64,000 bases of DNA from positions 1 through 64,000 of the forward strand of contig JACXUM010000007.1 in the NCBI GenBank assembly GCA_014763895.1, given 5' to 3'. The notes below the pieces were generated by a model. It worked only from the letters and a program-made list of their open reading frames with translations. It had not been told where the DNA came from and did no database searches. Positions 29,738 to 45,279 of the stretch are shown piece after piece. A program made the position numbers and the translations under genes. Position 1 is the first letter of the stretch; every line of letters starts with the position of its first letter. The stretch is from Campylobacterales bacterium (GTDB lineage Bacteria; Campylobacterota; Campylobacteria; Campylobacterales; Sulfurovaceae).

Positions 29738-30547
29738 TCATAAATATTTCGTTCCTTCCAGTGATCCTTCTTCTAATGTGGAGAGTACTATCTTGAGCCC
29801 TGTTTTGTGAAAGGAACATTGTGTAAATTCTTCTTTGAGAAAGTGTTTGATCTCTTCATGTTGACCGACACTGCCGCCCAAAACCAGTGTGTCAAAATCA
29901 AAAAGATTCAATGCCGTGTGAAAAGCATGGGCTAAGCCATGGTAGAAATTTTCTACAATTTTTTTTGCCACAGGCGAATCGAGTGTTTGCAGCCGGTCAA
30001 GTCTGTGATATGCTTTTTCGATATTCAAGTGTTCACACCACTTTTCAATGCCGCTTCCACTCGTATAAAGTTCCAGGCAATCCTCTCTGCCGCAGTTGCA
30101 GCGAAACGGCGCTTTTTGGTAGGGGATGTGTCCGATTTCACCGCTTTGGTTTCGGCTGCCAAGTATCAGTTTCCCGCTCTCGATGAAAGCGCTTCCAAAT
30201 CCGGTGCCGATATAAAAGACCGCCAGATGATCACTTTTCCAAAGTGCCTGTTCTGCTAAAGCGGCACATTTGAGATCGTTTTGGATTTCAAGGCGGATAG
30301 GGTATTTGGATTCTATATATCTTTTGACGTCAAATCTTGTAGAGTGGATATTGGGGGATGAGAGGATCACCCCCTCTTTGACCTGCCCGGCAAATGAGAT
30401 ACCGATCGATTTGATGTCCGGATGTTTAGAAATAATAGCATCCAAAAAAGAGGGAAGGTTGATCTCTTTGCTGGGTTTTGTGATGATTGTTCCCTCGTCT
30501 ATACGATATCTAAAGTGGGTACCTCCAAAATCGATTTGCAGTTTCAT
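29738..30547 (-). CDS. ROK-family sugar kinase (probable glucokinase)
   Basis: Predicted to phosphorylate free glucose released from glucan by amylases. The 269-residue protein has the N-terminal phosphate loop IDFGGTHFRYRI, the glucose-binding END equivalent in QNDLKCAALAE, IGTGFGSAF, and the zinc-binding ROK signature G-IGHIPY followed by CNCGREDCLE. It is a little shorter than usual (about 290-310). ROK proteins can be repressors, but there is no DNA-binding domain here. Its start overlaps the glgA stop by four bases, making it the last gene of the minus-strand glucan operon. Confidence 0.85.
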   Translation of the reverse strand: MKLQIDFGGTHFRYRIDEGTIITKPSKEINLPSFLDAIISKHPDIKSIGISFAGQVKEGVILSSPNIHSTRFDVKRYIESKYPIRLEIQNDLKCAALAEQALWKSDHLAVFYIGTGFGSAFIESGKLILGSRNQSGEIGHIPYQKAPFRCNCGREDCLELYTSGSGIEKWCEHLNIEKAYHRLDRLQTLDSPVAKKIVENFYHGLAHAFHTALNLFDFDTLVLGGSVGQHEEIKHFLKEEFTQCSFHKTGLKIVLSTLEEGSLEGTKYL

Positions 30548-34424: not shown

Positions 34425-35641
34425 TTATGAATCGATCTTATCCAGATTTTCAAACCCAGGCAGCACTTTGCCTTCCAAAAGCTCCAGTGAAGCCCCTCCG
34501 CCTGTGGAAATAAAGCTGATATTTTCTTTTTCGCCAGCTTTTTCTGCTGCATTTGCTGTGTCGCCACCACCGACAATGCTGTATGCATACGTATCGGCAA
34601 TCACATGGGCAATCCTAAAGGTACCTTTTGAAAACCTGTCGATCTCAAAAATCCCCATCGGCCCATTCCAAATAATTGTATTGGATAAGCCGATTACCTC
34701 TTCAAAAAGTTTTACCGATGCCGGCCCGATATCGACTGCAGAGTATCCGTTCATCAGATCTTGAACGGGAACAATCGCTGTGTTAACAGGTTGTTCAATA
34801 TTATCTGTAATGACGACATCTGGAGGAAGATAGACATTGACACCTGCTTTTTTTGCTGTATCTAAAATCGTTAGCGCTTCTGAGAGATATTCATTTTCTA
34901 TTAAAGAATTTTTCATATCATATCCTAATGCTTTGAGAAATGTGTTGGACATCGCTCCGCCTATGATGATCTTATGAACCTTAGGAATGATATTGTTTAA
35001 AAGTGTGATTTTTGAACCGACTTTGGCTCCCCCTATCACAAGGCAAATAGGAGATAATGGCTGAAACAACGCTTTTGCAAAGGCGTCGATCTCTCTTTTG
35101 AGCAAAAAACCGGCGACTTTGTGTTCGACAAATTCTGTGATACCGACTGTTGAAGCGTGTGCCCTGTGGCTGGTACCGAAAGCATCATTGACATAGATAT
35201 CGCATAGTGAGGCGAGTTCTTGTGAAAATGCTCTGTCATTTTTGGTTTCTTCTTGAAAGAACCTGATGTTTTCAAGCAGAAAAATTTCGCCGTTCTTTGC
35301 ATTTAAAATCTTTGGCTTCTCCTCTATAAAATTTTCTATAAAAATAATTTTCCGATCCAGGAGTCTGTCCACCCTTTTAGCAATATGTTTTAAAGAGAAA
35401 TTCTCGTTATCTTGGTCTTTTTGGGGCGTCCAAGGTGCGTGACAAGGATAATCGATTTTGCTTCATGGTCGATACAGTGATTGATGGTCGGAAGCGCTTC
35501 TTTGATCCTGGTATCATCGGTGATATTCCCGTGTGAATCCATCGGAACATTGAAATCTACTCTGATTAAGACTCTTTTTGTGTTCACATCAATATTTTTA
35601 AGTGTTTTAACCTTTTGCATCCATTCAATATTGCTATGCAT
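34425..35641 (-). pseudogene. pgk: Phosphoglycerate kinase, split by a -1 frameshift in an A5 run
   Basis: Converts 1,3-bisphosphoglycerate and ADP to 3-phosphoglycerate and ATP. The N-terminal frame starts at ATG 35641 (AGAAGGA upstream), encodes [12 protein letters not shown] and VTHLGRPKK, then runs into TAA. The rest continues in the -1 frame to 34425 with [40 protein letters not shown] and VGGGDTANA. Restoring one A at 35418-35422 joins the two frames as [16 protein letters not shown] and gives 405 residues, the normal PGK length with all motifs. It may be a sequence error, a true mutation or a slippage-decoded gene (C-AAA-AAG heptamer). The gene is 13 bases downstream of the phosphorylase. 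Confidence 0.85.
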
Positions 35642-35654
35642 TTGTCCAGTCCTT

Positions 35655-37319
35655 CTATAAATTGTATAGTTTTTTATAATACATATGTGCCATGAAACCA
35701 GAGTCAAATTCAAACAACACATCTTCCATGGAGTTTTTCATAATTTTTTCCCATTGCTCTTGATCATCGTAATAAAGAGGAATGATCTCATTTTCCAATC
35801 GGTCGAGCATGCTTTTATTATCTTTTTTATCTTGTTCTTCGATAGGCAGTGTGTGATCTGCTCCTAAAATGGTAAAGCTGTTAATGCCGTCTTTGCAAAA
35901 TTCCGGAAACCATCCGTCATTGATGGAAAAGTTGATAGCTCCGTTCATAGCGGCAGTCATACCGCTGGTACCGCTGGCTTCTCTGGTGATTCTTGGGGTA
36001 TTGAGCCAGATATCTGCCCCTTGTTTGAGTACACGTGAAAGTTCAAGTTCGTATCCGATCAAAACGGCCACTCTTTTAAATGTTTTGGACATATACGCAA
36101 GATCATTGAACATACTGATCGCATGTGTATCATGCGGATAAGGTTTTCCCGCCCAGATAACTTGGATGGGCCGTTCTTCTCTGGTGACTAGTTTTTGAAA
36201 TCTTTCAAAGTCAAGTTTTAAAAGGCCGGGTCTTTTATACTCAACAAACCTTCTGGCCCAGACAATAGTAAGGATTTCAGGGTCTAACATTTTTCCCGTT
36301 TGGTTTGCAACGATATCAAAAAGTATTTTTTTCATATGTTTTTTTCTTGCAATCAACTCGAAGTATTCATGCTCATCCAGCGCTCTGACAAGCGGTTTAT
36401 CTGCCCAGAATCTTTTATTTTGGGCATTGGTAATCGAGATGATCTCACAGATATTCGGATAATCTTTCCACATTTCATTGGCGACTTCACCGTGAAGTTT
36501 GGATACTGCGTTTGCGATTTTTGCCGTTCGCAAAGCACCAAGGGTGAGTGAAAAGTCATCGTTGTTGATTTCGGTGAGCTCCCGGACGCTCTTAAGATCA
36601 TGCTTTGCAAAATATCCCATTCTTTGCAGCAGATGAATGTTGTGCACCTCATTGCCTGCCGCTTCAGGGGTATGCGTTGTAAATCTGACGGCTTCTCTGA
36701 GCGTTTCCTTGTTTTTATAATGTTTTTTATAAAGTTCAAAGACCAAAGGAAATGAATGCCCTTCATTCATATGATAGATATCTATGTGGTATTTTAACGC
36801 TTCGAGTACCCTGACTCCGCCGATCCCCAGTACAATCTCTTGGGCTACTCTTGTCTCCTCATTGGGATCATAGAGTTTATGGGTGATCGTTCTTGAGAGA
36901 TAATCGTTCTCTTCATTGTCGGTTGAAAGCAGAATCAACGGAGCAGAACCAAAGAGCTCTGGAGGAACCAGATAGGCGGTAACAACAACATCTTTTCCAT
37001 TGATCTGGACGTGTACTTTGACATTGAGGTCTTCAAGGAAATAGTATTTTTTTCTTCTAAATTCTATTCTTAGATTTCTGTCTTCGTCTCTTGCCTGGTC
37101 ATAATAACCGAAACTCCAGAGAATGCCGATACCGACTACATTTTGTTTGAGATCATAGCAGCTTCGCATATGTGAGCCGGAAAGAAATCCCAAACCGCCC
37201 GAATAGATCTTGAGCGCTTGGTGTATGGCAAACTCCATTGAAAAATATGCTACGTTCTTTTGATACTCTTTGTTCATTTCATAGGTATGTAATTGCATTG
37301 TTCTGTCCTTACCGGTCAA
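35655..37319 (-). CDS. Short alpha-glucan phosphorylase-family protein (GT35-like) lacking the PLP lysine
   Basis: Expected to release glucose 1-phosphate from glycogen. The 554-residue protein is of the short type (classic GlgP is about 800). It has [21 protein letters not shown] at the N-terminus, [29 protein letters not shown] and [17 protein letters not shown]. In classical phosphorylases the last block reads GTGNMK, with Lys forming the Schiff base to pyridoxal phosphate; here that position is Thr (ACT codon), so PLP chemistry cannot work in the usual way. Some annotated short family members may share this change (from memory). The gene overlaps the pyk stop by four bases and precedes pgk. 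Confidence 0.8.
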
Positions 37320-38740
37320 TTATGGTCTAAGAGGTATCTCATCGTACCCTCATCTAATAGTTTGATATCGTTTGCTGGATGTTGAAAGTTGAATGGGAAT
37401 CCGATGGTCATGATATATTTTTTTTCCAGAGCGATCATTCCTAGATCAAGCGCTTTGATCAAAAACTCTTTGATCGCTTGATTGGCATGATCTCCCTCTT
37501 GGCTGAGGAGTATAGCATCAATCCCCCAAATCACTTGCAGTTTCCTTAGTACTTTAATGTTTTGGGATTTGACCAGAATTTTTTGTTTGGGTCTTAACGC
37601 CGCCAATGACATCGCGCTTTTCCCGCTTCTTGAAAATGCGATCAATGCATCCGGTTCAATGGCTTGTGCCAGCGTAATGACCGCCGCAGAGATAGGATCT
37701 GCGACCGGGTTGTTTTGATGTTCTTTAAAATAGGGATAATCTTTTTCAATCTCCATGATCGTATTATGAAGCGTTTGTACTGCAGCATTTGGATATTTTC
37801 CAATCGTCGTTTCATCCGAGAGCATCACGGCATCACATCCATCCAGCACGGCATTGGCGATATCGGAAATCTCTGCTCTGGTTGGATAGGGCGAGTCGAT
37901 CATGGAGGTAAGCATCTGTGTTGCAACGATTGAGGGTTTTGCACGTTTTGCAGCGGCTTTGATGATCTTTTTTTGAATGGACGGTACTTTCTGGAGACCC
38001 AACTCGACGCCAAGATCTCCTCTGGCAACCATAATGCCGTCTGCTGCTTCCAAGATTTGTTCGATATTGGCAACGGCATCGTCTGTTTCGATCTTTGCAA
38101 AGATCAGCGGGTTTGCTCCGTTTGCTTCAAGAATCGATTTGGCAATGTTGATATCATTTTCATTATGTACGAATGATAAAGCAACCAGGTCGATATCGTT
38201 TTTCGCACCAAATTCCAAATCTTGTTTGTCTTTGGGTGTGATAGCATCGATCTTGAAATGGGAATCGGGGAAATTGACCCCTTTTCTGGAATTTAACGTC
38301 TGGGCTACGGTAATTTCGCATTTGGTTTCTGTCGCATTCTTGTCGATGACTTTCGCCCTGATCGTTCCGTCAGAGAAAAATATCTGATCGCCGATCTGAA
38401 GCGTATCGATGATTTCGGGATAACTGATCGTGATCGTCTTAGTCGTTTCATCGATAGTCTCTTTGGATAATGTGATGATGTCTCCGACTTCCAGTTCCAT
38501 CGGTTTTTTTAAATGGCAAATTCTGATCTTCGGACCGGAGACATCCTGTAAAATGGCGACCTCTTTACCGATTTTGGCAGAAGCTTTTCTGATCTTTGTG
38601 ATCAAAGTCCGGTGATACTCATAAGTGGCATGTGAAAAATTGAGCCTAAAGACATTGACACCGGTTTGAATAAGCTGTTCAATCGCCTGGAAGGAGTCTG
38701 TTGCAGGTCCCAAGGTTGAAACTATTTTGGTTTTTCTCAT
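37316..38740 (-). CDS. pyk: Pyruvate kinase
   Basis: Transfers phosphate from PEP to ADP, the last glycolytic step. The ATG at 38740 (preceded by GGAAG) is preferred over one 12 bases upstream, giving 474 residues. It shows TKIVSTLGPAT, FRLNFSHA, IFAKIET, the MVARGDLGVEL block and TRAEISDIANAVLDG plus MLSDETTIGKYP. The A, B and C domains are complete. It is first in the minus-strand operon pyk-glgP-pgk-DUF4912-GH57-glgA-ROK and divergent from gap. A second, unusual homologue lies at 40967. Confidence 0.96.
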   Translation of the reverse strand: MRKTKIVSTLGPATDSFQAIEQLIQTGVNVFRLNFSHATYEYHRTLITKIRKASAKIGKEVAILQDVSGPKIRICHLKKPMELEVGDIITLSKETIDETTKTITISYPEIIDTLQIGDQIFFSDGTIRAKVIDKNATETKCEITVAQTLNSRKGVNFPDSHFKIDAITPKDKQDLEFGAKNDIDLVALSFVHNENDINIAKSILEANGANPLIFAKIETDDAVANIEQILEAADGIMVARGDLGVELGLQKVPSIQKKIIKAAAKRAKPSIVATQMLTSMIDSPYPTRAEISDIANAVLDGCDAVMLSDETTIGKYPNAAVQTLHNTIMEIEKDYPYFKEHQNNPVADPISAAVITLAQAIEPDALIAFSRSGKSAMSLAALRPKQKILVKSQNIKVLRKLQVIWGIDAILLSQEGDHANQAIKEFLIKALDLGMIALEKKYIMTIGFPFNFQHPANDIKLLDEGTMRYLLDHN

Positions 38741-38873
38741 CTTTCTTCCCATTATCCAACATTTTACAATTGTACTGAAAAAAACACAATCTGACTACAT
38801 GGTATTATTACCAAATTGTAAACAATGTGTCATATAATCCTAACGCTCAAACACTAATAAAGGTCAAACAAAA
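38741..38873. promoter_or_regulatory. Divergent promoter region between pyk and gap operons
   Basis: Seen: a perfect plus-strand TATAAT at 38833-38838, about 35 bases before the gap ATG, and an AT-rich stretch with ACAAT and GATAAT candidates on the minus strand. An imperfect dyad (ACAATTGT, 38766-38773) is visible. A shared regulator could control both glucan operons from here, but no operator can be assigned from one copy. Confidence 0.5.
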
Positions 38874-39869
38874 ATGGCATTGAAAGTCGCAATTAACGGA
38901 ACCGGACGGATCGGCCTGATTGTAGCAAAAATCGTTACAAGCAGAGAAGATATGGAACTTGTGGCGATGAATACCACAGCCGATATGGAGATGTTGAAGT
39001 ATCTCTTAAAATATGACTCTATTCATGATGGCGTGGATGCGCAGATCGTGGATGATACGACGATGAATATCAACGGTCATCAAGTCAAAATCTCTTTTAC
39101 AAGAGACATTGATGCATTGGAGTTCGGCAAACACGGTGCCGAAGTGGTCATAGAGTGCACTGGCGTGTTTTTGACCACAGAAAAGTGCCAGGGCTATCTC
39201 AAAGACGGCGTGCGAAAAGTAGTGATGTCGGCCCCTGCCAAAGATGCTACCCCAACCTATGTATTGAATATCAACACCGATCAATATAGCGGCGAAGCTA
39301 TCATCTCAAATGCTTCGTGTACGACTAACTGTTTGGCACCTATTTGTAAGATTTTGGATGATGCGTTTGGTATCGAGAACGGGCTGATGACCACCATTCA
39401 CTCCTATACCAACGATCAAAATATCCTCGATATAAAACATAACAAAGATGTCCGAAGAGCAAGAGCTGCAGCGATCAACATGATCCCGACAACCACAGGC
39501 GCGGCAAAAGCCATCGGTCTTGTGATGCCGCATCTTCAAGGAAAACTGAACGGTTATGCGATGAGAGTTCCGACTGCAGATGTTTCTGTTGTGGATTTAA
39601 CGGTCAATCTTAAGCGATATGTAACCAAAGAAGAAGTCAACGAAGCGATGGTAAGAGCAAGCCAAGGTGTTTTTGATGGATTGATCGAGATCGATTACGA
39701 CAAAAGAGTTTCGAGCGACTTTATCGGCAGCACCTATTCTGCCACATTTATTCCGGATATGACAAGCGTAGTGGATGATAAAACGGTAAAAGTTTTGGCG
39801 TGGTATGATAATGAATGGGGCTATAGTGCAAGACTGGTAGATATGGTTGCACTGGTAGGTTCAAGATAA
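38874..39869 (+). CDS. gap: Glyceraldehyde-3-phosphate dehydrogenase with non-canonical coenzyme residues
   Basis: Oxidises glyceraldehyde 3-phosphate to 1,3-bisphosphoglycerate. The 331-residue protein has GTGRIGLIVAKI, the catalytic SNASCTTNCLAP (Cys near residue 145) and WYDNEWGYSARLVDM. The residue after the second beta strand, normally Asp in NAD-specific enzymes (as in NDL), is Thr here (AMNTTADME). The Leu-Pro pair near 187-188 is replaced by Ile-Lys (LDIKHNKD). Known: these positions decide NAD versus NADP, so relaxed or NADP-preferring use is inferred. It is first in the plus-strand operon. Confidence 0.93.
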   Translation: MALKVAINGTGRIGLIVAKIVTSREDMELVAMNTTADMEMLKYLLKYDSIHDGVDAQIVDDTTMNINGHQVKISFTRDIDALEFGKHGAEVVIECTGVFLTTEKCQGYLKDGVRKVVMSAPAKDATPTYVLNINTDQYSGEAIISNASCTTNCLAPICKILDDAFGIENGLMTTIHSYTNDQNILDIKHNKDVRRARAAAINMIPTTTGAAKAIGLVMPHLQGKLNGYAMRVPTADVSVVDLTVNLKRYVTKEEVNEAMVRASQGVFDGLIEIDYDKRVSSDFIGSTYSATFIPDMTSVVDDKTVKVLAWYDNEWGYSARLVDMVALVGSR

Positions 39870-39870
39870 A

Positions 39871-39981
39871 CATTACAAAGTACCGACGTCAGTGGTTGGG
39901 GCGATGCTGGATATCAATACCTATAACCAACCTGATGTTGAGCTGGGAAAAATCATTTTGGATCAAAAATTAAAACAGTAA
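39871..39981 (+). pseudogene. Relic of the C-terminus of glucose-6-phosphate isomerase (pgi)
   Basis: Seen: an open 36-codon frame without a start, directly after gap, reading HYKVPTSVVGAMLDINTYN then QPDVELGKIILDQ and a stop. The AMLDINTYNQPDVELGK stretch is the conserved C-terminal signature of glucose-6-phosphate isomerase (A-L-I-YNQPGVE-GK). The remaining roughly 400 codons are missing. It carries the TAAGGA used as the pfkA ribosome-binding site, which may be why the tail survives. Inference: the ancestral operon was gap-pgi-pfkA and pgi was deleted. Confidence 0.75.
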
Positions 39982-39991
39982 GGACACATTG

Positions 39992-40957
39992 ATGTCAATA
40001 GCTATTTTGACCTCCGGAGGCGATTGTGCCGGAATGAATCCGGCAATCAAACAGTTTGTGGATTATTGTCTTGCACAAAATGTAGAGCCTTATTTGATTT
40101 ATGACGGGCTGGAGGGGATCATAGACGGCACGATTCAAAAAGCCGGTTATGCTGACGTATCCGGTATTATGCATTTAGGCGGTACGATTTTAAGGTCTTC
40201 AAGGTCTAAAAGATTCTTTGAGTATGCCTATCGCAAACAAGCATATGAGAATCTTCAAAAACACGGCATCGATAAACTGGTGATCCTCGGAGGAGACGGC
40301 TCTTTTAGAGCGCTGAACCGGTTTTATCAAGATTTCGGTGTGAGATTTATCGGGATTCCGGCAACGATCGACAATGATATTTTCGCAACGGAATACTGCC
40401 TTGGAGTGGATACGGCGCTCAATATCATCCGAAATGCCACAGATGCCATCCGAGATACTTCCTCTTCGTTTAAAAGAGCGAGTGTGATTGAAACAATGGG
40501 AAGAGAGTGCGGTTATCTTGCACTGATTTCAGCGATCGTCAGCGGTACCGAAGTGTGTGTCATTCCTGAAGTCGAATGTGATTTTGATGCGCTGGCTTTA
40601 AAGCTTAGATCACAGCTAAAGCAGGGAAGAAAGTACATTATGTGTATAGTGGCTGAAGGGACAAAGATGACCCATCAAGTGGTTGAGTGGCTGGAGCATG
40701 AAATCGGGATCGAAACAAGAGCGACTGTGTTGGGACATGTTCAACGGGGAGGCAATCCTACGGTATTTGACAGGCTCATGGCTACAAAGTTTGTGGAACA
40801 TGCCGTGGATAATCTTTTGGATGAAACGACCAAAGGCGGGTTGGTAGTCGTGTATCAAAACTCAAAATGTGAGTTTGTTACGATAGAATATGTAAACTCT
40901 AACAGCTATAAGCTCGAAGAAGAATTGCTCATCATGGCAAAAGATATGATGCACTAG
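39992..40957 (+). CDS. pfkA: 6-phosphofructokinase (ATP-type group A)
   Basis: Phosphorylates fructose 6-phosphate, the committed glycolytic step, unusual in Campylobacterota, which are mostly gluconeogenic. The ATG at 39992 with AAGGA is chosen over a TTG three bases earlier; the product is 321 residues. It shows LTSGGDCAGMNPAI, LGGDGSF (Gly at the position that is Asp in PPi enzymes), PATIDNDIFATE (the Lys typical of PPi enzymes is absent; Ala instead), DTSSSFKR and MGRECGYLAL. ATP dependence is inferred from these residues. Confidence 0.94.
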   Translation: MSIAILTSGGDCAGMNPAIKQFVDYCLAQNVEPYLIYDGLEGIIDGTIQKAGYADVSGIMHLGGTILRSSRSKRFFEYAYRKQAYENLQKHGIDKLVILGGDGSFRALNRFYQDFGVRFIGIPATIDNDIFATEYCLGVDTALNIIRNATDAIRDTSSSFKRASVIETMGRECGYLALISAIVSGTEVCVIPEVECDFDALALKLRSQLKQGRKYIMCIVAEGTKMTHQVVEWLEHEIGIETRATVLGHVQRGGNPTVFDRLMATKFVEHAVDNLLDETTKGGLVVVYQNSKCEFVTIEYVNSNSYKLEEELLIMAKDMMH

Positions 40958-40966
40958 GGTGTAAAG

Positions 40967-42781
40967 ATGAATGTAAAAGTTTTACAAAACATACTTGATG
41001 ACCTCTTGGCGTTAAGGGATGAGATTTTAGACTACGAGATAGATGAAGAAGTATCTCAAAATGAAAGTGTGCATAATCTCAAAGCCTATATCAATCTTAG
41101 GTCAAAAGATATCGTTGATCTGCAAAACAGACTCACTTCCATCGGGCTCTCTTCTTTGGGGCGTGCACAAAGCTGCGTGATCCATTCGATCAACCAGGAT
41201 ATCGAGATACTCTCATATATTTTAAAGATGAAGAAAGATCTGCATACTCCCCATTTTTTGAGTTGTGATGCCGCAAAAAAAATCATGTTGAAAAATGCCG
41301 AAGTGTTCGGTAAACATAGTGGAGATTTTGAAACGAAAGTGATGGTGACGCTCCCTTCAGAAGCGGCAGATTCGCCAAAGCTGATTTCTGAACTGATCGT
41401 GAACGGCACCTCTATAGTGCGCATCAATACGGCACATGACGATGAAGCGGCCTGGCAGAAGATGGCTGCATTTGTCAAAGAGGAAAATAAAAAACAGCAT
41501 ACGGATACAAAGATCTACGTGGATTTGGCAGGCCCTAAAAATAGAACAGAAGAGATCATCAAACTCTTTAATCCTTTTACGATCGGTTCAAGAAAAAAGC
41601 CAAAGCGCGTAAGGCTTTTGCCCAAATCATTCGAAGACGCTATGACATTTAAAGCTTCCGAACAAAAAGAAGGTACGTTCAGCGAGGCAACGCTTGTGAT
41701 CAGCGATAAGCTCTATAAGCAGTGTAAAAAGAGTAAAAAGATACAGATCAGTGATTTGGAAAGGGAAAAAGATCATACCTGTGTGCTGCTGCATGAAGAG
41801 GATGGTATCTATCTTTTGGCAGATAAAAAAATCACAGTTTTTGAAAAGACAACGCTTTGGATCGGCAAAAATGAGAGTAATCTCTACCATCTAGCGCTTG
41901 AACCGCAAAAGATAAGGGTGTTTCAGGGGAATGAACTGATTATTACCAAATTGCATATGCAAGGTTGTGCAGATTTTGAATATGATGGCAAAGTATATGT
42001 AGGAGTAATCGAGTGTTCGAATAAAGATATTTTCCCCTATGTCAAAATCGGTGATCCGATTTTTATCGATGACGGGAAAATCGGTTGTGTAGTCGTAGGG
42101 ATCAATGAGATCGGTTTGGTATGCAGGGTCTTTTTGGCCAAAGAAAACGGTACGGTTCTAAAAGAAAAAAAAGGGATCAATTTCCCCAACTCCGATTTAG
42201 AGATCAGTGCGATCACCCCAAGTGATGAACAAAATTTTGAAGCTATTATATCATTTGCGGATATTATCGGTATTTCATTTGCTCAAACTAAAAATGATAT
42301 TAAGAAACTTCAAGATATGCTTGTTATGAGAGATAAAAAACAGATTGCGATCGCTCCAAAGATCGAAACCAAAACAGCGCTGCGCAATCTGCCGGAAATC
42401 TTAGAACAGTTGATCGGATGGGATCGGTTTGCATTGATGATTGCAAGAGGTGATCTTGCCATTGAAGTAGGATTTGACAATCTTCCTTATATACAAGAAG
42501 AGATATTCGGTATTTGTGAAGCAGCCCATGTACCGGTGATCTATGCTACACAAATCATGGAGGGACAGATGAAAAACAATCTGCCAAGCAGGTCAGAAGT
42601 TACCGATGCTGCTTTGGCGCAAAGGGCTGACTGCGTAATGCTCAATAAAGGCCCTTATGTTTTGGATACGCTGATGACGATCAAGCATATCCTACAACAG
42701 GCTCATACGTTATTCCAAAAAAACAGACAGCTTTTAGGGATTTGTGCTACCTGGAAGATTCAAGCAAAGGAGAGTAAATGA
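40967..42781 (+). CDS. Long divergent pyruvate-kinase-family protein
   Basis: A 604-residue relative of pyruvate kinase with an N-terminal helical extension (about 1-120). The barrel begins TKVMVTLPSEA (instead of TKIV-T-GP), followed by IVRINTAHDD and YVDLAGPKNRT. A large insert in place of the normal B domain (about 200-370) follows, then APKIETKTAL, MIARGDLAIEVG, YATQIMEGQMKN, PSRSEVTDAA and MLNKGPYV (instead of M-LSGETA). The usual C-terminal allosteric domain is absent. Substrate-binding residues (Arg, Lys in KIE, Asp/Glu metal sites) are partly kept, so it may be a kinase with another role or a regulated PYK. It overlaps the next gene by four bases. Confidence 0.8.
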   Translation: MNVKVLQNILDDLLALRDEILDYEIDEEVSQNESVHNLKAYINLRSKDIVDLQNRLTSIGLSSLGRAQSCVIHSINQDIEILSYILKMKKDLHTPHFLSCDAAKKIMLKNAEVFGKHSGDFETKVMVTLPSEAADSPKLISELIVNGTSIVRINTAHDDEAAWQKMAAFVKEENKKQHTDTKIYVDLAGPKNRTEEIIKLFNPFTIGSRKKPKRVRLLPKSFEDAMTFKASEQKEGTFSEATLVISDKLYKQCKKSKKIQISDLEREKDHTCVLLHEEDGIYLLADKKITVFEKTTLWIGKNESNLYHLALEPQKIRVFQGNELIITKLHMQGCADFEYDGKVYVGVIECSNKDIFPYVKIGDPIFIDDGKIGCVVVGINEIGLVCRVFLAKENGTVLKEKKGINFPNSDLEISAITPSDEQNFEAIISFADIIGISFAQTKNDIKKLQDMLVMRDKKQIAIAPKIETKTALRNLPEILEQLIGWDRFALMIARGDLAIEVGFDNLPYIQEEIFGICEAAHVPVIYATQIMEGQMKNNLPSRSEVTDAALAQRADCVMLNKGPYVLDTLMTIKHILQQAHTLFQKNRQLLGICATWKIQAKESK

Positions 42782-45279
42782 AAGCGATTGTTTTAGCAGG
42801 AGGATTCGGTACAAGAATTCAACCGTTGACCAATTCGGTACCCAAACCGATGTTGCCTATCTTAAATAGACCGATGATGGAGCATACGATCATCAAACTC
42901 AGAGATGAACTGGGGATTACCGAAATCGCCGTGCTGCTTTTTTTTAAACCTGACGTAATCAAAAACCATTTTGGTGATGGCAGGGCGCTTGGTGTCAATA
43001 TTACTTATGTACTGCCGGATGATGACTATGGAACAGCAGGTGCGGTAGCTTTTGCAAGAGAGTTTTTGGATGAGACATTTATTATCGTCAGCGGTGATTT
43101 GGTGACCAATTTCAATTTTGCCGATGTGAAAAAGTTTCATGAAGCCAAAGAGTCCAAACTGACAATTACACTCACTTCTGTGGAGAATCCGCTTGCGTTC
43201 GGTGTGGTGATCGCAGATGAAAACAGCGAAATCAAAAAGTTTTTGGAAAAACCGAGCTGGGGAGAGGTCTTTAGCGATACGATCAATACCGGTATCTATA
43301 TGATCGAACCGGAGATTCTGGAATATATTCCTTACGGAACCAATTTTGATTTTGCCAAAGATCTTTTCCCGCTTTTGATGAAAAAGGGGATTTCGCTTTG
43401 GGGATGTTCCATGAAAGGATACTGGAGGGATGTAGGAAATCCTGAAAGTTACCGAGACGTCTATCATGATATCTTCAGCGGTGAAGTAGAGATGCTATGC
43501 AAGGGTGAGAAAAAAGAGATCGATAAAGGTGTGGTATACTGCGAAGAAGGGGTGGAACTGGACGACAAAATCAGGGTCAAAGGGACTGTCATTTTAGGAA
43601 AAAATGTCAAGATTGCCAAAGGGGTCACACTTTCAAACTGTTGTATCGGAGACAATACAAAGATCAAAGAGCACGCAGAGATCATCGATACGGTCATATG
43701 GCAGGATGTGCAGATCGGTACGAAAGTCAAACTCAAAAACAGCATCATTTGTAACGATAATGTTTTAAAAAGTGATGTGAAAGCACCATTCGGCGTGATC
43801 ATTGCAGAAAAATGCAAGATCAATAAGAAAGTAGCATTTGAGAGAGATATTATCGTGTGGCCTGATAAAGTCATTGAAGAATCTTCCGTTGTCAGCACCA
43901 ATATCATATGGGGAGACAAATACAAATCTTCTATCTTCGAAAACGGTATGGTGACCGGGCGAACCAATATCGAACTTTCAGCCCAAATGAGCACCAAACT
44001 TGCCGAAGCATTCGGTTCGATCTTTCCTGTCGGAAGCAAAATTTATGTTTCCAGGGATTATCATAAATCATCCCGCATGCTTAAAAGAGCCTTTCTAAGC
44101 GGTATCCTTTCTACCGGCGTAAATGCCGTGGATGTTTTTGATGTGCCTTCAAACGTCATGCGGCACAGTCTTAGTAAAAATGAAGATATCGTTGCGGGAG
44201 TGCATTTCAGACAATCGGTTCTTGACTCCCAAGATACCGAGATTATCTTTTATACCTCTGAAGGCCTTGAAATCGATACCAAGGTCGCGCAATCGATCGA
44301 AAGAATCTTCTTTAGAGAGAATTTCAGAAGGGTATCTTTCAATGAAATCGGCGAGCTGTATGAAAGCCCGCGGATGAAAGAGGAATATATCAGGGATATT
44401 GAAGAGAAAGCCGAGTCTCAATTTTTTAGGAACAATGATGTGAAAATTGCCGTAGACATCATGAACGGTTCGGTTAGCGATGTCTATCCGGAGATTGTAA
44501 GTACGTTAGGCATCAATAATATTATCCTCAACGGACATAAGTTCGATAGCGGGAATAAGCTTGGAAATTTTTCATCGAGTAAAATCATCAAATCCCAGCA
44601 TGATGTGGAAAGTATCGTAAAGTCTTTAAAGCTTGATTACGGTTTTTTGATCTATCCAAACGGCCATAAACTGCAAATGGTTGATAACAGGGGTAGGCTG
44701 GTCTATGACTATATTCTACTTCTGGTAGTTCTGGAACTTTTGGATAAGACGGCTGAGCGGGAAATGAAAGTTTTGCTTCCTGCGTGGGCGCCAGATTTTA
44801 CAAGTTATAAAAATCTCAAAATTTCCAAAGACAAATGGTCCAATTTTAAAGCTTCGCAACTAAGAGAGTATGACCTGATCGCCGATACGGACGGTTTCTT
44901 TACATTTACCGAATTTAATCTAAACAGAGATGCCGTATTTGCGCATATCAAGATTTTAGAACTGATCCAAAAGTCTGGACTTAGCGTGTCAAAGATCATT
45001 GATGGCCTGCCTGAACACTGTTACAGAGGGGGGAACATTCATTGTCCGAGTCAGAAGAAGGGCAAAATGATGCGAAAATTCCTCGAAGACGGAAACGATA
45101 AAGAAGTCTCCTCTATCGATGGTGTTCAAATCCGTTTAAATGAAAACGAGTGGATACTCATGGTGCCGGACCAATATAAAGAGTATTTGAACATTTATGT
45201 TCAAGCCGAGGATGAGAAAAGCGCAGGTAAAATCTTTTATCAATACCAAGACAAAATAGAAAAGTGGATCAGTGAATAA
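42778..45279 (+). CDS. Sugar nucleotidyltransferase fused to a degenerate phosphohexomutase domain
   Basis: The N-terminal third (about 1-235) is an active-looking nucleotidyltransferase: VLAGGFGTRIQPLTNSVPKPM, GTAGAV, VSGDLVTNF and the GYWRDVGNPESY end. A left-handed beta-helix (about 245-400) follows. The C-terminal PGM/PMM-like region (about 410-830) begins SRDYHKSSRMLKRAFLSG, but the catalytic serine loop (TASHNP in true mutases) is replaced by GVHFRQSVLD and the metal loop (D-DGDR) by DTDGFFTF. Mutase activity is therefore doubtful. Known: relatives are annotated mannose-1-phosphate guanylyltransferase. Inference: here it may make NDP-glucose for GlgA, since glgC is missing from the cluster. 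Confidence 0.85.
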   Translation: MKAIVLAGGFGTRIQPLTNSVPKPMLPILNRPMMEHTIIKLRDELGITEIAVLLFFKPDVIKNHFGDGRALGVNITYVLPDDDYGTAGAVAFAREFLDETFIIVSGDLVTNFNFADVKKFHEAKESKLTITLTSVENPLAFGVVIADENSEIKKFLEKPSWGEVFSDTINTGIYMIEPEILEYIPYGTNFDFAKDLFPLLMKKGISLWGCSMKGYWRDVGNPESYRDVYHDIFSGEVEMLCKGEKKEIDKGVVYCEEGVELDDKIRVKGTVILGKNVKIAKGVTLSNCCIGDNTKIKEHAEIIDTVIWQDVQIGTKVKLKNSIICNDNVLKSDVKAPFGVIIAEKCKINKKVAFERDIIVWPDKVIEESSVVSTNIIWGDKYKSSIFENGMVTGRTNIELSAQMSTKLAEAFGSIFPVGSKIYVSRDYHKSSRMLKRAFLSGILSTGVNAVDVFDVPSNVMRHSLSKNEDIVAGVHFRQSVLDSQDTEIIFYTSEGLEIDTKVAQSIERIFFRENFRRVSFNEIGELYESPRMKEEYIRDIEEKAESQFFRNNDVKIAVDIMNGSVSDVYPEIVSTLGINNIILNGHKFDSGNKLGNFSSSKIIKSQHDVESIVKSLKLDYGFLIYPNGHKLQMVDNRGRLVYDYILLLVVLELLDKTAEREMKVLLPAWAPDFTSYKNLKISKDKWSNFKASQLREYDLIADTDGFFTFTEFNLNRDAVFAHIKILELIQKSGLSVSKIIDGLPEHCYRGGNIHCPSQKKGKMMRKFLEDGNDKEVSSIDGVQIRLNENEWILMVPDQYKEYLNIYVQAEDEKSAGKIFYQYQDKIEKWISE

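Follow-up and report, generated by a model that had tools for sequence, protein, structure and literature searches.

In a bacterial relative of Sulfurovum and Arcobacter, a glycolysis operon very probably lost its glucose-6-phosphate isomerase gene (pgi) by deletion, with the 3' tail of the gene left behind. We analysed positions 1 to 64,000 of contig JACXUM010000007.1 from a Sulfurovaceae genome (assembly GCA_014763895.1); this whole stretch is referred to as the window. Between gap and pfkA, where relatives carry a full pgi in a gap-pgi-pfkA-pyk operon, the window holds a remnant of the 3' end of pgi (39871-39981, + strand). The loss would be tolerable with the intact pgi carried on another contig, C11.

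The segment between gap and pfkA matches the C-terminus of glucose-6-phosphate isomerase

The stop-to-stop frame at 39859-39981 (+) reads VQDKHYKVPTSVVGAMLDINTYNQPDVELGKIILDQKLKQ followed by a stop codon and includes the stretch AMLDINTYNQPDVELGK, which a preliminary description of this DNA had quoted as the C-terminal Pgi signature of a startless 36-codon frame. Against a profile of 419 positions built from 26 related intact Pgi proteins, the remnant scored 40.5 bits (E 1.3e-11 over all 1770 window frames) and covered profile positions 383-418. No second match to this profile was found among the 1770 frames at E < 0.1, and the top score obtained with ten shuffled sets was 7.8 bits. The preliminary description had regarded a failure to match Pgi profiles as evidence against its reading; the match to the 26-protein profile disposes of that objection. 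The Pgi of L062, a locus from the same genus, independently picked out the remnant when used as a query against the complete genome (54% identity, residues 396-430 of 431, E 4.3e-7); tblastn between L062 and the remnant gave 53%. The Pfam PGI family (PF00342) aligned to 30 residues of the remnant (positions 434-463 of 486) with an E of 0.012 and 14.8 bits, short of the cut-off of 22, so that the remnant fails the full-length match required of a functional glucose-6-phosphate isomerase. Judged by the profile match and by collinearity with the ends of intact Pgi proteins, L062 included, positions 39871-39978 encode the last ~31-36 residues of the enzyme, followed by the stop codon TAA. With its collinear similarity, most of the protein missing and an intact gene in relatives, the segment can be classed as a pgi pseudogene.

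The proposed C-terminal signature stands as far as the collinear match is concerned, but it is broken by a substitution of Asp for Gly: the remnant contains QPDVE where the intact form is QPGVE. This Gly is invariant, being present in 26 of 26 intact related Pgi proteins, and its replacement suggests decay or relaxed selection. Compared with the pattern that we take to be the Pgi signature, the remnant mismatches solely at this position. The frame is startless upstream of the homology but not within it, where both a GTG (39892) and an ATG (39904) are found.

In MAFFT alignments the remnant is 57-59% identical to the Pgi proteins of L062 and L063 over 37 aligned positions, compared with 51% for the type encoded on C11. 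Its probable assignment to the operon subtype rests on synteny and on this slightly higher identity, the remnant being too short to be placed in a separate tree. A remnant made of two pieces was considered and rejected: MAFFT placed the first residues (KHYKVP) on an internal Pgi stretch (IKxFxIP), and the DNA identity there (7-11 of 19) was about that of random placements.

Relatives carry an intact gap-pgi-pfkA-pyk operon

The genes on both sides of the remnant are intact. Upstream lies gap (38874-39869, +), encoding a type I glyceraldehyde-3-phosphate dehydrogenase (TIGR01534, 408 bits, over the cut-off), and downstream pfkA (39992-40957, +), encoding an ATP-type 6-phosphofructokinase (NF002872, 340 bits, over the cut-off) that is 80% identical to its counterpart in L062. 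A pyruvate kinase gene (37316-38752, -; TIGR01064, 477 bits) is divergent from gap, and a second one of 604 residues (pyk2, 40967-42781, +) follows pfkA. For the latter protein, which is additional to the ordinary pyruvate kinase, NCBIfam PRK14725.1 is the closest family, with a score below its cut-off. The next gene (42778-45279, +) encodes an 833-residue fusion of sugar-1-phosphate nucleotidyltransferase and phosphohexomutase domains; such a fusion adjoins pfkA in Arcobacter-type loci too.

The locus L063 equals the window gene for gene, with a divergent pyk followed by gap, pgi, pfkA and a second pyk, and has a full pgi in the place of the remnant. The order gap-pgi-pfkA-pyk2 is also present in L065, L069, L105 (genome G337) and L109 (genome G358, same family as the window genome), and gap-pgi-pfkA in L012, L021, L004/L077, L005, L078 and L118. 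The intact operon that the preliminary description predicted for relatives thus exists, and its own counter-case, that no homologous operon has pgi between gap and pfkA, does not hold. The window shares gene order, orientation and the pfkA start region with the five gap-pgi-pfkA-pyk operons, as well as the position of pyk2 3' of pfkA seen in L063, L065 and L069, and differs in that a tail stands alone where they have a full pgi. The remnant runs collinear with the C-terminal residues of the glycolysis-operon Pgi of Campylobacterota (PF00342; L063 and L062) and occupies the same operon position; while these proteins have about 415-431 residues and the invariant Gly, only 31-36 residues are left in the window, with Asp at that site. 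In both the gap and the pfkA tree, the window falls inside supported clades holding intact-operon loci.

A different arrangement is found in five Arcobacter-type loci (L067, L071, L073, L081 and L107), where pfkA directly follows gap without an intact pgi, as in the window. Their gap-pfkA spacers are at most 45 bases long and, unlike that of the window, leave no room for a pgi remnant. These loci possibly represent an independent loss or an older arrangement.

The closest pfkA relative is L062, which we take to be the same contig as C40 of genome G065 (pgi 100% identical). Here pgi precedes pfkA at the spacing seen in the window, and the ribosome-binding sites of the two loci resemble each other; the gene upstream of pgi is not gap but one resembling trehalose-phosphate synthase, as judged by eye from its translation. 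The arrangement of L062 would be compatible with a rearrangement that attached gap to the end of a pgi-pfkA pair, destroying pgi. We consider this unlikely, since both flanks of the remnant match the intact L063 operon, the divergent pyk and pyk2 included, and since both trees, that of gap and that of pfkA, group the window with operons of this kind. No close sister strain with the pre-deletion state was found, the nearest relative with an intact pgi being this one, 80% identical in pfkA and without gap directly upstream.

The junction is consistent with a deletion that spared both neighbouring genes

The gene-for-gene match to L063 and the collinear remnant support the earlier proposal that pgi was deleted from an ancestral gap-pgi-pfkA operon. 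The stop codon TAA of gap ends at 39869, and clear DNA homology to the pgi tail begins at about 39886, 17 bases past it. The 16 bases in between (39870-39885, +) form the putative deletion junction zone, whose origin is uncertain: they agree with the pgi stretch expected there at 5-8 of 15 bases, a level that the best chance placements also reach. At the other end, the stop codon of the remnant overlaps a Shine-Dalgarno-like site for pfkA (TAAGGA, 39979-39984, +), in agreement with the earlier suggestion that the remnant supplies the pfkA ribosome-binding site. The spacer before pfkA, TAAGGACACATTGATG, is very similar to TAAGGAGAGAATGATG in L062, where it follows an intact pgi. The same gap-remnant-pfkA junction was not found in 78 genus and 299 order genomes, with few candidates scored per genome.

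In the course of events that we infer, the window's lineage would have possessed a gap-pgi-pfkA-pyk operon, from which a single deletion would have removed about 1.1-1.2 kb (estimated from intact lengths), from about the start of pgi, immediately downstream of the stop codon of gap, to ~31-36 codons before its end. In the intact loci L063 and L069, pgi begins directly at the end of gap or overlaps it. Such a deletion would spare the stop codon of gap as well as the ribosome-binding site of pfkA, and both neighbours would still be expressible. The tail would have no enzyme function and would be drifting.

An assembly error or collapsed repeat hiding a full pgi seems improbable, even though the assembly is a draft of 47 contigs: the remnant is situated in the interior of its contig, the rest of the genome yielded no orphan 5' portion belonging to this pgi subtype, and the invariant Gly is already altered, which is unlikely for a functional gene.

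Across the 29 codons compared between the remnant and L063, differences affect 14 of 29 third positions, as against 7 of 58 at the first and second positions (Fisher p 0.0004). A sample of this size has low power to tell weak constraint from none, and the divergence of the remnant at first and second positions is not above that between pairs of intact genes. The third-position bias and the still-open frame suggest that most of the divergence arose under coding constraint and consequently that the deletion is recent on the scale of this comparison. The same two features might be read as signs of a maintained small gene or leader regulating pfkA, for example a 25-residue peptide starting at the ATG at 39904, which is most improbable given that the coding-like pattern is inherited from pgi, that the sequence is a Pgi C-terminus in register at the ancestral place, and that the short form was found in no other genome among the 78 genus and 299 order genomes searched (few candidates scored per genome).

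A second intact pgi is present elsewhere in the genome

The preliminary description had called for a search for another pgi, noting that glucose 6-phosphate made by the ROK kinase of the window would need a Pgi from elsewhere. The ROK kinase gene is real (29738-30547), and the genome contains one other pgi, an intact gene on C11 encoding 416 residues (Pfam, 122.7 bits, over the cut-off), so that the C11 enzyme can supply this step and glucose 6-phosphate can presumably be isomerised. The C11 Pgi is of a subtype different from the operon type and common to many members of the genus. Second, diverged copies of other glycolytic genes are also present: gap on C3 (57-58% identity), with pgk beside it, and pfkA on C18 (55%); the second copies on C3, C11 and C18 correspond to loci L095, L001 and L097 of the window genome (G000). 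With the intact C11 pgi and these second copies, no metabolic gap follows from the loss. The presence of another intact pgi would make the deletion tolerable and the lost copy dispensable.

The cluster in the window represents a second glycolysis set and lies beside genes for glycogen synthase, a GH57 branching enzyme and alpha-glucan phosphorylase. Its pgk (34425-35722, -) occupies two frames, 35390-35722 for the N-terminal part and 34425-35372 for the C-terminal part, owing to a frameshift near 35390-35420 that falls within or close to a C/A run; at this point the frame is continuous in L064, L102, L103 and L042. This frameshift may be real or a sequencing error. If it is real, two genes of the cluster, pgi and pgk, are broken, with substitutes for both elsewhere in the genome. 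Tentatively, this second glycogen and glycolysis set might be undergoing trimming gene by gene, through the deletion of pgi and the frameshift in pgk, wherever a substitute exists on the chromosome, with a mixed pathway as the outcome that relies on the C11 Pgi and the C3 Pgk.

No mention of this gene arrangement was found in the titles and abstracts of papers on glycolysis in these bacteria. As the scar of a gene deletion within an operon, with the lost gene backed up by a redundant copy elsewhere, the remnant is ordinary, and ideas on glycolysis or genome evolution are not changed by it. Its recognition averts annotation errors, such as calling a spurious short gene or predicting that the pathway is blocked at glucose 6-phosphate, and it provides a well documented snapshot of gene loss within an operon in which the scar can be seen together with the intact forms and with the back-up copy.
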